Source: Paraflavitalea devenefica
GTDB lineage: Bacteria; Bacteroidota; Bacteroidia; Chitinophagales; Chitinophagaceae
Assembly (NCBI RefSeq): GCF_011759375.1
Contig: NZ_JAARML010000002.1
Location: 124,001 to 188,000, forward strand
Length of the DNA: 64,000 nt
Reading direction: 5' to 3'
Shown here piece after piece: positions 16,650 through 64,000 of the stretch (its first letter is position 1; every line of letters starts with the position of its first letter). The position numbers and the translations under genes are program-made. A model generated the notes under the pieces. The model was given only the letters and a program-made list of their open reading frames with translations. It was not told the DNA's origin and searched no databases.

Positions 16650-16737
16650 GTCGCCAGCCTCTGGCTGGTGACGGCTATTTCAAAGCCTCTGGCTTTGCTT
16701 TACTTCTCCGCAGTGTCTCCCGCAGGGGACGCTGCGG
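16650..16737. repeat. Cluster of three palindromes including CCGCAG copy 2
   Basis: Three hairpins in a row: GTCGCCAGCC/GGCTGGTGAC (16650-16672), CAAAGCC/GGCTTTG (16681-16697), and CCGCAGTGTC/GACGCTGCGG (16708-16737). The last is nearly identical to 936-965. The cluster lies just after the LytTR regulator stop and looks like a composite REP-like element. Confidence 0.75.
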
Positions 16738-59861: not shown

Positions 59862-61541
59862 GTGAAAACCAGATTCCATTTTTATATGATGATCAATTTG
59901 ATTGTAGTGATAGGTCTGCTGGCTTGTAATAAATACGGCCCGCCTACACCGCCTCCGGCACCTGTGGATCCCTGTATGTATAATGGTGTGGATACCTGTG
60001 CTGCCAATACCTCGTTGAATGCCACCATTAACCTCACCGCCGAGAAGCAGACCATCCATAGTTTCGGCGCTTCGGATTGCTGGGGGGTGAAGTTCATTGG
60101 GAAGAACTGGCCACTGGATAAACGCAACCAGATTGCCGACCTGTTGTTCAGCAAGGATATGGATGGTAATGGTAATCCTAAAGGGATCGGTCTTTCGATG
60201 TGGCGCATCAATGTGGGGGCAGGCAGTTATGAACAGGGTTCTGCCAGCAAGATCACTTCAGAGTGGAGAAGGGAAGAATGTTTCCAGGATGCTGGAGGTG
60301 TGTATGACTGGAACAAACAAGCCGGTAACCGCTGGTTTGCCCAGGCGGCCAAAACAAGGGGCGTAGAGAACTTCCTGTTATTCTCTATTGCGCCACCTGT
60401 ACAGATGGCTAAAAATGGCCTGGCCTTTGGCGATGGCGGCGCCGAGTTGGGAAAGCTGAACCTGAAGGCTGATAAGTATGATGACCTGGCCGATTTCCTC
60501 ACAGAGGTGGCTAAGAATTATACGCAGGCCGGTATTCCTGTTAAATACATCAGTCCGTTCAATGAACCACAATGGGATTGGATTGCCAAGAATGGTTCGG
60601 AGGCGAGCCAGGAAGGTTCGTCTGCCACCAATACCGAAGCCCTGCAACTCATCAGGGAACTAAATACCCAAATCACCAATAAAGGGCTTACCCAAAAGCT
60701 CGCTGTTGGTGAAGTGGCGGCACATAATTACGCTTATGGCCCTGTATCCAATAATACCGGCCGCAGTGATGTGATCAATTATTTCTGGAATGCTGCAAGC
60801 GCCGGGTATATTGGCTCCTTGCCTTCAGTAGAGAAGATCATCAGCAGCCACAGTTATTTTTCACAGCCGGATATTACTTCGCTGATCTCCAACCGGGTGA
60901 GCCTGGCCAATAAAGTATCGGCCATCGGGCAGGGATTGAACTATTGGCAATCGGAGTATTGTATCCTCAGCGGTGAAGACAATATTGCGGGGGGCGGCAG
61001 GGACCTGGGCATGACGGCTGCCTTATACATTGCGCGGGTCATTCATACCGACCTGGCCATCGGCAATGCCAGCTCCTGGCAGTGGTGGCTGGGCATCAGT
61101 CCTTCGGATTACAAAGACGGACTGGTATATGTAGCCGACCTGAATGGCAATATGGGTGAGCTGACGGCCACCAAAACAGATGGCCTCATTTATAGATCCA
61201 AAATGCTGTGGGCGCTGGGTAACTATTCAAGATTTATCCGTCCGGGTATGATCAGGGTGGATGCTACGCTGGATGGCATGACCAGTCCGCAGACAGCCGC
61301 TACCAAACTGATGATCTCTGCGTATAAGAATCCTGCTACCAAAGAAGCCGTGATCGTAGTGATCAACATGACCAATAAAGATGAAAACATCAAACTCAGC
61401 GGGTTGAGCTTTGCCAATGCCGCACTGAAAACTTACACTACTTCCGATAATAAGGAATTACAGTACAGTGAGTCCAATGCTGGTGACAAAATAAAGGTTG
61501 GCGCAAGATCCGTTACTACTTTTGTGGGTACTTATAAATAG
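59862..61541 (+). CDS. GH30-family glycoside hydrolase lipoprotein
   Basis: GTG 59862 (VKTRFHFYMMINLIVVIGLL, then AC) gives a normal lipoprotein signal; the upstream GTG at 59832 lies in the palindromic element. This 559-aa enzyme has the GH30 (beta/alpha)8 barrel with side beta domain: HSFGASDCWGVKFIGKNWPL, MWRINVGAGSYEQGS, the acid/base Glu in YISPFNEPQWDW, the nucleophile Glu in YWQSEYCIL, and a C-terminal beta domain. GH30 enzymes cut beta-1,6-glucan, xylan or glucosylceramide-like beta-glycosides; the substrate here is open. Confidence 0.9.
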   Translation: MKTRFHFYMMINLIVVIGLLACNKYGPPTPPPAPVDPCMYNGVDTCAANTSLNATINLTAEKQTIHSFGASDCWGVKFIGKNWPLDKRNQIADLLFSKDMDGNGNPKGIGLSMWRINVGAGSYEQGSASKITSEWRREECFQDAGGVYDWNKQAGNRWFAQAAKTRGVENFLLFSIAPPVQMAKNGLAFGDGGAELGKLNLKADKYDDLADFLTEVAKNYTQAGIPVKYISPFNEPQWDWIAKNGSEASQEGSSATNTEALQLIRELNTQITNKGLTQKLAVGEVAAHNYAYGPVSNNTGRSDVINYFWNAASAGYIGSLPSVEKIISSHSYFSQPDITSLISNRVSLANKVSAIGQGLNYWQSEYCILSGEDNIAGGGRDLGMTAALYIARVIHTDLAIGNASSWQWWLGISPSDYKDGLVYVADLNGNMGELTATKTDGLIYRSKMLWALGNYSRFIRPGMIRVDATLDGMTSPQTAATKLMISAYKNPATKEAVIVVINMTNKDENIKLSGLSFANAALKTYTTSDNKELQYSESNAGDKIKVGARSVTTFVGTYK

Positions 61542-61550
61542 GCGATTAGT

Positions 61551-64000
61551 ATGAAGAACCTTCTTGTTATTGTATTCAATTCCCCGCAGTGTCTCCCGGA
61601 GAGCTTGTCCCGCACCAGCGGGAGGACGCTGCGGCTAAAGAAGAACATTTTTGTTATTGTACTAGGTTGTTTAAGTGTGTATGCGGCACCCGCACAGGAA
61701 TTATCCCTGCAAGGCAAATGGACCGTAAGCCTGGACTCCTCCAATGGCGTAGCGCATGCTATCAGTTTGCCAGGCACGCTCGACGATGCGGGTATCGGTA
61801 CAAAGAATACCGTACAACCGGGGTTGGACATTGCCGCCCTGGCCCACCTGGCACGTAAAGTGGAATTCATCGGCAAGGCTTTTTATACACGGGCGTTTAC
61901 CATCCCTGCCAACTGGCAATCGAAGCAGGTAACCTTAACCCTTGGCCGCGTGTTGTGGAAATCAACCGTGTGGATTGACGGAAAGCCTGTATCCGAAAGC
62001 GGGGAAAGCCTGGTGACCGCACACCAGTATGATATTACCCCTTACATTACGCCCGGCAAAAAGCAAACCATTACCATTTGTGTTGACAACGCCAACATCT
62101 ACCCGGGGATCAATGTATACGCCAAACAATATCCTGCCAAAGAAAGCAGTGAAATGGCGCATGCCTATACCAACCATACCCAGATCAAGTGGAATGGCAT
62201 CATTGGCAGTATCTCGCTGACAGCAAGACCAACCGTTTCTCTTGATAATATAAGGGTGTTGCCAAATCTACAAGGCAAAGAACTGGATATTCAGTACGAG
62301 GTGAATAATCCTGCCGGTACTGCTTTCGATATAAGATCGTACGTACTTGATACAAAAACAGGTAAGCGTTGGCCGGCCGGGTTTACAAAAACCGGTCAAA
62401 CAAGCAGGGAACTGATGGCCAGTATTCCCTTTGCCAAAGAGGTAGTATACTGGAACGAGTTTTCTCCGCAATTGTACCAATTGGTGACCATTGTACAATC
62501 CACTTCTGGTAGGGATACTGTTAAAACCAGTTTTGGTATCAGGGAGTTTACAACAAAGACAGGCGACTTGTACCTCAACGATAACAAGATCTTTATTCGT
62601 GGCAACCTGGAATGTATCATATTCCCCCTGAAAGGGTATCCGCCTATGCAGTTACCCGAATGGAAGGCGCTGTTCAACACGGCCAAAGCTTATGGATTGA
62701 ATTCGTTCAGGTTTCATAGCTGGTGTCCACCGGCAACTGCTTTTAAAGCTGCCGATGAACTAGGCTTCTATTTGCAGGTGGAACTGCCGCATTGGAACCT
62801 GAAAGTTGGCGGCGATACGGCTTCTTTCCATTTTCTTGAACGCGAAGCTCACCGTATACTCGATATGTATGGTAACCATCCCTCTTTCCTGTTTTTCAGC
62901 ATGGGTAATGAACTGGAAGGGGATTTCGGTAAGTTGAATAACCTGGTAGCGGAACTAAAGAAGAAAGATAACCGGCACCTGTACAGCACCACCACATTTA
63001 CTTTTCAAAAAGAGATTACCGGCCTGCCACAACCACAGGATGATTACTACGTAACCCAATGGACCCAAAAAGGCTGGGTAAGAGGGCAGGGTGTCTTCAA
63101 CGATGAGCCACCTAATTTTTCTAAAGATTATACGGGTTCTACTGAGGGACTGGAAGTGCCTCTTATTTCCCATGAGATCGGCCAGTATTCTGTGTTTCCC
63201 GATATGAATGAGATTGCCAAATACAAGGGCAACCTGGTGCCGCAGAATTTTATTGGTGTGCGGGATGATATGGCCAAAAAGGGATTGCTGCACCTGGCTC
63301 CTGCTTACCTGAAAGCCACCGGCAAGTTTGCCACGCTATTGTATAAAGAAGAGATAGAACGGGCTTATAAAACAAAAGGGTTCGACGGATTCCAGTTGTT
63401 ACAACTGCAGGATTTTCCCGGGCAGGGCACAGCACTGGTGGGCCTGTTGAATGCATTTTGGGAAAGCAAGGGCGCTGTGACTGCAAAAGAGTTCCACCAA
63501 TATTGCAGTGAGCTTACCCCTTTGCTTCGCTTTCCGAAGGCAGTATACACCAATGAAGAAACGTTTAAAGCCGGCATGGAGCTGGCTAATTTTTACAAGC
63601 CGTTGAATAAGGCAGAGCTGCTGTGGAAGATAAGCGATGGCCAGGGAAAGGTGTTGAAAGCAGGAACTGCGGGCGTAAAAGATTACCCGGTAGGAAATTG
63701 TTTAGCGGCAGGTGAGATAAACTTTGACCTTCAGCGTATTACTGCAGCTACCAGGCTAACGATTGAGCTGACGGTAAAGGGTACCCCCTATCGCAATGCC
63801 TGGAATGTATGGGTGTATCCTGCCGGTTTGAAAGATAACAGTAAGGAGGTGATGGTTACGGCCTCTGTGCAGGAGGCATTGCAGGCGTTGGAAAACGGAC
63901 GCAAGGTACTGCTGTGTCCTTTACCCGATACCTTGCATGGCATAAAGGGAAAGTTCGTGCCTGTATTCTGGAGCCCCGTGCATTTCCCCAATCAGCCCGG
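61551..64000 (+). CDS. GH2-family glycoside hydrolase, 5' part with inserted palindrome
   Basis: ATG 61551 opens a frame that runs off the window (about 816 codons). Domains: sugar-binding jelly roll (FYTRAFTIPANWQSKQVTLT), an Ig-like domain, then a TIM barrel with LNSFRFHSWCPPATAFKAAD, GNHPSFLFFSMGNELEGDFG (acid/base Glu) and LISHEIGQYSVFPDMN (probable nucleophile Glu). The signal peptide is interrupted: MKNLLVIVF, then about 21 residues encoded by a CCGCAG palindrome, then IFVIVLGCLSVYAAPAQ. Bases 61553-61574 recur at 61640-61661 (20 of 22 identical, offset 87), so the frame is kept. The gene follows GH30 by 9 bp. Confidence 0.85.
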   Translation, partial: MKNLLVIVFNSPQCLPESLSRTSGRTLRLKKNIFVIVLGCLSVYAAPAQELSLQGKWTVSLDSSNGVAHAISLPGTLDDAGIGTKNTVQPGLDIAALAHLARKVEFIGKAFYTRAFTIPANWQSKQVTLTLGRVLWKSTVWIDGKPVSESGESLVTAHQYDITPYITPGKKQTITICVDNANIYPGINVYAKQYPAKESSEMAHAYTNHTQIKWNGIIGSISLTARPTVSLDNIRVLPNLQGKELDIQYEVNNPAGTAFDIRSYVLDTKTGKRWPAGFTKTGQTSRELMASIPFAKEVVYWNEFSPQLYQLVTIVQSTSGRDTVKTSFGIREFTTKTGDLYLNDNKIFIRGNLECIIFPLKGYPPMQLPEWKALFNTAKAYGLNSFRFHSWCPPATAFKAADELGFYLQVELPHWNLKVGGDTASFHFLEREAHRILDMYGNHPSFLFFSMGNELEGDFGKLNNLVAELKKKDNRHLYSTTTFTFQKEITGLPQPQDDYYVTQWTQKGWVRGQGVFNDEPPNFSKDYTGSTEGLEVPLISHEIGQYSVFPDMNEIAKYKGNLVPQNFIGVRDDMAKKGLLHLAPAYLKATGKFATLLYKEEIERAYKTKGFDGFQLLQLQDFPGQGTALVGLLNAFWESKGAVTAKEFHQYCSELTPLLRFPKAVYTNEETFKAGMELANFYKPLNKAELLWKISDGQGKVLKAGTAGVKDYPVGNCLAAGEINFDLQRITAATRLTIELTVKGTPYRNAWNVWVYPAGLKDNSKEVMVTASVQEALQALENGRKVLLCPLPDTLHGIKGKFVPVFWSPVHFPNQP
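61583..61634. repeat. CCGCAG palindromic repeat, copy 3, inside the GH2 gene
   Basis: CCGCAGTGTCTCCC and AGGACGCTGCGG arms as in copies at 936 and 16708, with an extra inner part (CCCGCACCAGCGGG) forming a second stem. It is located within the coding sequence of the signal peptide. Confidence 0.8.

Follow-up and report, generated by a model that had tools for sequence, protein, structure and literature searches.

How small palindromic repeats spread in bacteria is an open question, and it is raised at the start of a GH2 gene near the end of the window (the whole stretch of 64,000 nucleotides analysed here), where a palindrome lies between two copies of a 22-bp sequence in the codons of a signal peptide. 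We asked whether this arrangement is the trace of an insertion, whether it recurs elsewhere in the genome, and by what route the element may have entered.

The probable insertion site and the GH2 signal peptide

The initial annotation had reported a match at 20 of 22 positions between two stretches, 87 bases apart, that enclose a CCGCAG palindrome, and the coordinates bear this out. Copy 1 of the direct repeat (GAAGAACCTTCTTGTTATTGTA, 61553-61574) and copy 2 (GAAGAACATTTTTGTTATTGTA, 61640-61661) differ at two of the 22 positions, with a spacing of 87, and the palindrome CCGCAGTGTC...GGACGCTGCGG lies between them at 61584-61634; these and the other features of the site are on the plus strand. 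The 65-nt unit that separates the copies is made up of TTCAA at its left end (61575-61579), a 55-nt long-form palindromic element (TTCC followed by CCGCAGTGTC...GGACGCTGCGG, 61580-61634) and CTAAA at its right end (61635-61639), and the outer palindrome holds in its loop a second one, AGCTTGTCCCGC-ACCA-GCGGGA (61602-61623). When the strand from 61575 to 61639 was folded with DNA parameters, its energy was -16.6 kcal/mol, whereas shuffled sequences averaged -9.4 (z -3.3) and none of the 200 did as well. The window repeat scored 16, and an adjoining repeat with a score of at least 16 was found at 3 of 6000 random 34-nt stretches in the same genome.

The ORF that carries the insert starts with the ATG at 61551-61553, the sole in-frame ATG before the signal core, occupies 61551-64000 on the plus strand and runs past the end of the window; the complete ORF has 939 aa. 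Its GH2 assignment is based on the translation and on Pfam matches to Glyco_hydro_2_N (44.2 bits, cut-off 28) and Glyco_hydro_2 (25.6 bits, cut-off 23). From this ATG the reading frame remained open across the insert, since the added length of 87 nt is divisible by three and no stop codon occurs within the palindrome in this frame. The insert of 21 residues proposed earlier is an approximation, the 65 nt between the copies being equivalent to about 21.7 codons and the gain to the ORF being 29 codons (87 nt). Between 54879 and 64000, ORFs on the same strand precede the GH2 gene in an arrangement like that of a polysaccharide utilisation locus; from their translations, we take them to be SusC-like, SusD-like and GH30-type glycosidase-like, the GH2 ORF being the only one searched.

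A search for orthologues of the GH2 protein yielded 64 loci, including those of Niastella caeni (66% protein identity), Terrimonas pollutisoli (65%) and a Flavihumibacter MAG (60%). N-termini were obtained for 62 of these loci, the remaining two starting at a contig end. The orthologue signal peptides are ordinary, short and free of the insert, and a scan around the orthologue starts for either palindrome arm with up to one mismatch found a single lone arm-like word (L082). Aligned by eye, the N-termini of the three named relatives (MNTAIIKYFFIVIGVLLSYHNGIAQ, MKTGTLKYFFLAMVALLSYHNGMTQ and MKFGWLLVFLFVGVAYSFAQ, respectively) correspond to the window sequence beginning in copy 2, KNIFVIVLGCLSVYAAPAQ. 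Because the orthologue N-termini align from copy 2 onward, copy 2 is read as part of the native signal-peptide core, whereas copy 1, a surplus copy with the start codon still attached, is read together with the element as an addition. The comparison with relatives for a single-copy empty site gave a divided answer: the insert is missing from the orthologues, but no empty site was found among them at the level of letters, the nearest found having 66 and 65% protein identity.

The suggestion of an alternative start within copy 2, by which the original signal would be regained, is not supported: in frame, copy 2 reads AAG AAC ATT TTT GTT ATT GTA and contains no ATG, GTG or TTG. The only in-frame TTG before the hydrophobic core is within the palindrome (61605-61607), where it is a putative alternative start; translation is likely to begin either there or at the copy 1 ATG at 61551. 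From either position the protein retains a basic stretch (RTLRLKK), the core IFVIVLGCLSV (top 9-residue Kyte-Doolittle mean 3.3) and an APA motif. Impaired export, the other consequence proposed in the initial annotation, is not indicated by such a sequence; export of the GH2 protein is probably kept, because the hydrophobic core and the cleavage motif are intact behind the basic stretch. Translation from the ATG at 61551 would lengthen the n-region by 29 residues in a protein that would still be exported. In the window copy we have a clear example of such a repeat taken into a signal peptide with the reading frame preserved, and both start use and export are directly testable.

The palindrome family and its flanking repeats

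A search of the window's own genome (8.7 Mb, 21 contigs) with the insert region gave at least 44 matches (40 of the 91 candidates were scored), and the palindrome proved to be a dispersed family of roughly a hundred copies, mostly 34-nt hairpins with the arms CCGCAGNGTC and GACNCTGCGG; the copy at the GH2 gene is a 55-nt form that includes the nested second palindrome. The left arm with up to one mismatch occurred 270 times, against 24 for the reversed control, in counts to which both arms of one copy may contribute. The full 34-nt form with up to three mismatches was found at 79 places, a few of them the same palindrome on the opposite strand, and longer forms at 31 places, each read on both strands; the control gave 0 in both cases. 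Some of the long-form places consist of a half copy beside a short full copy. Two further copies, both of the 34-nt short form and on the plus strand, lie in the window at 932-965 and 16704-16737. In an alignment of 16 chosen copies the stem is paired in 99% of cells. Two-sided changes occupied 6 cells against a shuffled mean of 1.9, a number reached in 0 of 500 shuffles, and the pairs with a two-sided change numbered 2, which is no better than the shuffles (237 of 500 reach 2). Judged by eye in the window copy, the ends are TTCC and GCGG, and CGTC is present only within the right arm, on the other strand. Just outside the core there are weakly conserved A/T positions, T being favoured at the first two of five left-end positions. 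Rfam gave no match up to an E value of 1 in 61000-62000 of the window and nothing at the gathering score in four other loci (L212, L213, L181 and L036). At three loci (L047, L148 and L157) left-arm half copies stand immediately upstream of full copies, an arrangement that a second insertion might have produced by taking the place of the remainder of an earlier copy.

The flanks of 111 copies (79 short and 32 long) were read with at least 220 nt on each side; copies with a shorter flank before a fetched stretch ended were left out, as were the outer arms of nested copies, and copies were selected by the palindrome, the flanks not being used. A mechanical rule placed 38 of these copies entirely within ORFs of 100 codons or more, frequently close to the 5' end; the window copy is itself contained in an ORF. 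A duplication was defined as a direct repeat with a score of at least 12 within 30 nt of both ends, and 13 of the 111 copies have such flanking repeats, with lengths from 14 to 131 bp. The longer ones are of 131 bp (L036), 95 bp (L181), 50 bp (L158) and 43 bp (L228); those of middle length are of 27 bp (L220, L173 and L196), 25 bp (L180), 22 bp (the window) and 21 bp (L162); and the shorter ones are of 15 bp (L198 and L024) and 14 bp (L227). A repeat of 82 bp at L219 is beyond the distance limit and was excluded from the 13. Such repeats were far rarer in the controls: 5 in 4000 pairings of the left flank of one copy with the right flank of another, none in 1572 random positions of the same loci, 4 in 6000 random positions drawn from 464 kb that included the window, and none at 38 unrelated hairpins with a stem of at least 9 bp. 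These hairpins replaced a control by other REP families, which were too few, comprising 0 copies (although copies are visible in L079), 5 copies (1 positive) and 8 copies (0 positive), and the positive was the L220 locus, which also carries the palindrome family. The repeats of L024 and L196 recur at other loci, and L158 holds a second element in a tandem array; with these three removed, 10 of 111 are left (Fisher p <1e-12 against both large controls).

In a first set of 31 copies the duplication had been apparent only at the window, with a weaker one at L024 (score 12), but larger sets, of 103 and then 111 copies, overturned this impression. No repeat within the limits was found in 98 of the 111 copies, and duplication is therefore not a regular result. 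Short exact flanking repeats of at least 7 nt are in slight excess (4.5% against 1.2%), and the ends of the inserted unit are ragged, most of the 13 cases showing gaps of 0-18 nt. Because qualifying repeats flank 13 of the family copies and the controls are near zero, the 22-bp window repeat is to be seen as one case of a recurring target duplication of variable length.

Two loci are instructive as to which copy was added. At L036 (around 370-700) a gene with a product that we presume to be like the methyltransferase PrmC has its final 131 bp, at the 3' end, repeated as a fragment beyond the palindrome copy. At L219 (around 690-930) a gene has its initial 82 bp duplicated on the upstream side of the palindrome copy; here the repeat starts inside the presumed start codon, as it does in the window, and the gene copy now begins with TTG. 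One repeat copy belongs to an end of the gene and the other is surplus, as would be expected if the target was duplicated on entry of the element.

These data bear on the view that a long signal peptide simply includes the insert as ordinary coding sequence and that the 22-bp likeness is a coincidence of hydrophobic codons. The two copies do encode similar hydrophobic residues, and a visible duplication is missing at most family copies. Nevertheless, we rejected this explanation as hardly credible, given the palindrome at many unrelated places, the insert-free orthologues and the rarity of such scores beside random places. We consider it likely that the 65-nt unit came into the signal-peptide codons of the GH2 gene by insertion of a small mobile palindrome, itself non-coding, which left a 22-bp target duplication. 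The proposal of a palindromic insertion with target duplication in this region, made in the initial annotation, has gained from the dispersed family, the recurring flanking repeats and the insert-free orthologues, although no letter-for-letter empty site was found. This degree of confidence covers the insertion with its target duplication, and those given below for other explanations mostly concern the moving step and overlap with it.

Possible routes of insertion

In the route that we prefer, the hairpin would be the mobile form. Two single-strand breaks, one in each strand and at a variable distance from each other, would open the target, and the hairpin would be joined in there. Fill-in of the arms would then produce duplications of variable length, too short to see where the breaks are close together. 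Replication template switching is nearly as likely as this combination of two breaks and fill-in. The lengths of 14-131 bp speak against a fixed stagger, and also against transfer of the IS200/IS605 type, as members of that group are reported to leave no larger target duplications (PMC2817692). We tentatively propose that Chitinophagaceae hairpins insert by neither a fixed-stagger DDE route nor a duplication-free HUH route, but by way of two distant breaks or a switching fork, with duplications from 14 to more than 100 bp.

Template switching, a plausible though not the favoured account, would have a stalled strand copy a palindrome elsewhere and then return to its own template farther upstream, so that the intervening stretch is made twice, the palindrome marking the junction, and no transposition enzyme is needed. 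The variable lengths, the many duplication-free copies, the ragged ends and the half copies adjoining full ones are all accounted for in this way. The orientation of the copies is also consistent with it, since it roughly tracks GC skew: in a count over contigs C1 and C2 that used exact left arms and 20 sampled stretches, 32 are on the plus and 8 on the minus strand where the skew is positive, and 6 are on the plus and 12 on the minus strand where it is negative (Fisher p 0.0009), with a cluster of exceptions near 1.07-1.20 Mb of C1. However, the orientation bias may mirror gene orientation only, and clustered copies are not independent; in addition, the sharp-ended shared core and the weak A/T positions outside it suggest a unit and not random stretches. 

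The order of events might also be reversed, a duplication arising first and the palindrome entering later between the tandem copies. Tandem units that contain the palindrome do exist (at L158 and in the related genome G249), and REPIN clusters with repeated flanks, arranged in tandem, are known (PMC3116915). Most of the 13 cases, however, have one element between two target-derived copies, repeats of this strength are rare at random (the 4 of 6000 given above), and the reversed order would call for independent duplications on many occasions, each followed by an insertion exactly between the two copies, which makes it very improbable.

As to enzymes that might move the palindrome, a cellular Y1 (RAYT-like) transposase acting on single-stranded DNA, as proposed for REPs, would suit a hairpin family of REP size, and the genome has three PF01797 matches; nonetheless, a scan of 1.5 kb around these genes (at most two mismatches) showed the palindrome flanking none of them, and the sole nearby copy is about 1 kb from one Y1 gene. 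We regard this route as rather doubtful. Two of the Y1 genes (L079 and L080) stand among other palindromes, of the GCGAGGCT... type near L079 and TGGTTCGTG...CACGAACCA near L080, which are possibly the own REPs of those genes. A DDE transposase like those of IS1634 and IS1549 might act on the palindrome in trans, given that these elements are reported to leave direct repeats of 8-514 bp, for which no mechanistic model is offered (PMC2266710). The IS1634 transposase model NF033559 had no match at an E value of 0.001 in the window's own genome, and although the mobiliser could have been lost, we consider this route improbable. Target-primed reverse transcription is a further candidate; the single reverse transcriptase match (PF00078) in the genome is a 510-aa ORF in L233, which we take to be retron-like.

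Related hairpins and comparison with known elements

Matches to CCGCAGNGTCTCC-N8-32-GACNCTGCGG occur in 8 of 294 sampled genomes of the Chitinophagaceae, including the one studied here, several of them by a single place. In genome G249 (L203-L210) there are tandem arrays whose units, about 100-400 bp long, all contain a CCGCAGGGTCTCCTGCAAAGGGACCCTGCGG palindrome together with others; these arrays look like expansions of a repeat-flanked insertion. In genome G281 (L212 and L213) the CCGCAG hairpin stands at the left end of a longer element, about 165-180 bp in length, that is flanked by direct repeats of 28 and 21 bp. With an enlarged right-hand distance, 2 of 9 hairpin reads in G281 had flanking repeats, one hairpin probably having been read on both strands; the cross-pair control was poor there (53 of 2000 at a score of at least 14), and the repeats are a lead only. 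In G097 (L215) two long matching stretches (alignment score 182) enclose a long-form hairpin, and more hairpins lie nearby. The repeat-flanked hairpins of G281 and G097 suggest that the mechanism extends beyond a single strain.

In-frame capture alone is not new, because REPs within genes and in-frame Rickettsia palindromic elements have already been described. The part that we have not seen in the literature searched, mostly titles and the beginnings of abstracts, is the long, variable target duplication at a small palindromic repeat: none is described there for REP-like elements, and the portion of the RepRanger article that was available (PMC12306157) does not mention duplication. These duplications serve as footprints of the insertion step, in that they give the direction of the event, outline the inserted unit and argue against a fixed stagger.

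The family resembles REPs and REPINs in being short, high in copy number and hairpin-forming, and some REPs are inside ORFs, also at the NH2 end (PMC3733652). It differs from them in its long, variable flanking duplications and in that no Y1 gene is flanked by it. Whereas a REPIN has two opposite REPs as a unit, the short form here is a single hairpin and the long form has a different palindrome within its loop. A REP has GTAG or CGTC at one end (PMC3733652); by eye, the present family has neither at an end. With MITEs it shares a non-coding, dispersed nature, inverted ends (CCGCAGNGTC/GACNCTGCGG) and, in some copies, target duplications, but MITEs are 70-300 bp long (PMC3733652), whereas the family copies are of 34-55 nt and vary in the length of their duplications. 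The likeness to IS1549 and IS1634 (PMC2266710) is in the long direct repeats, variable in length, that insertion produces; unlike the geneless hairpins of 34-55 nt, those elements are 1.5-2 kb long and carry a transposase; the IS1634 end consensus C-----YT is unmatched if the end is set at CCGCAG, the true end position being uncertain.

Capture in frame within a protein gene likens the window copy to the Rickettsia palindromic elements, with which it was compared by description only; those are of about 150 bp and most of the reported ones are in frame (PMC10969869), whereas most copies of the present family are of 34-55 nt and most are not clearly inside genes. The DNA hairpin elements of mitochondria are likewise small and mobile and are sometimes found in genes without a frameshift (PMC2800124), although they belong to other genomes and, in Allomyces, are reported to lack the flanking duplications (PMC2800124) that mark a part of the present family.
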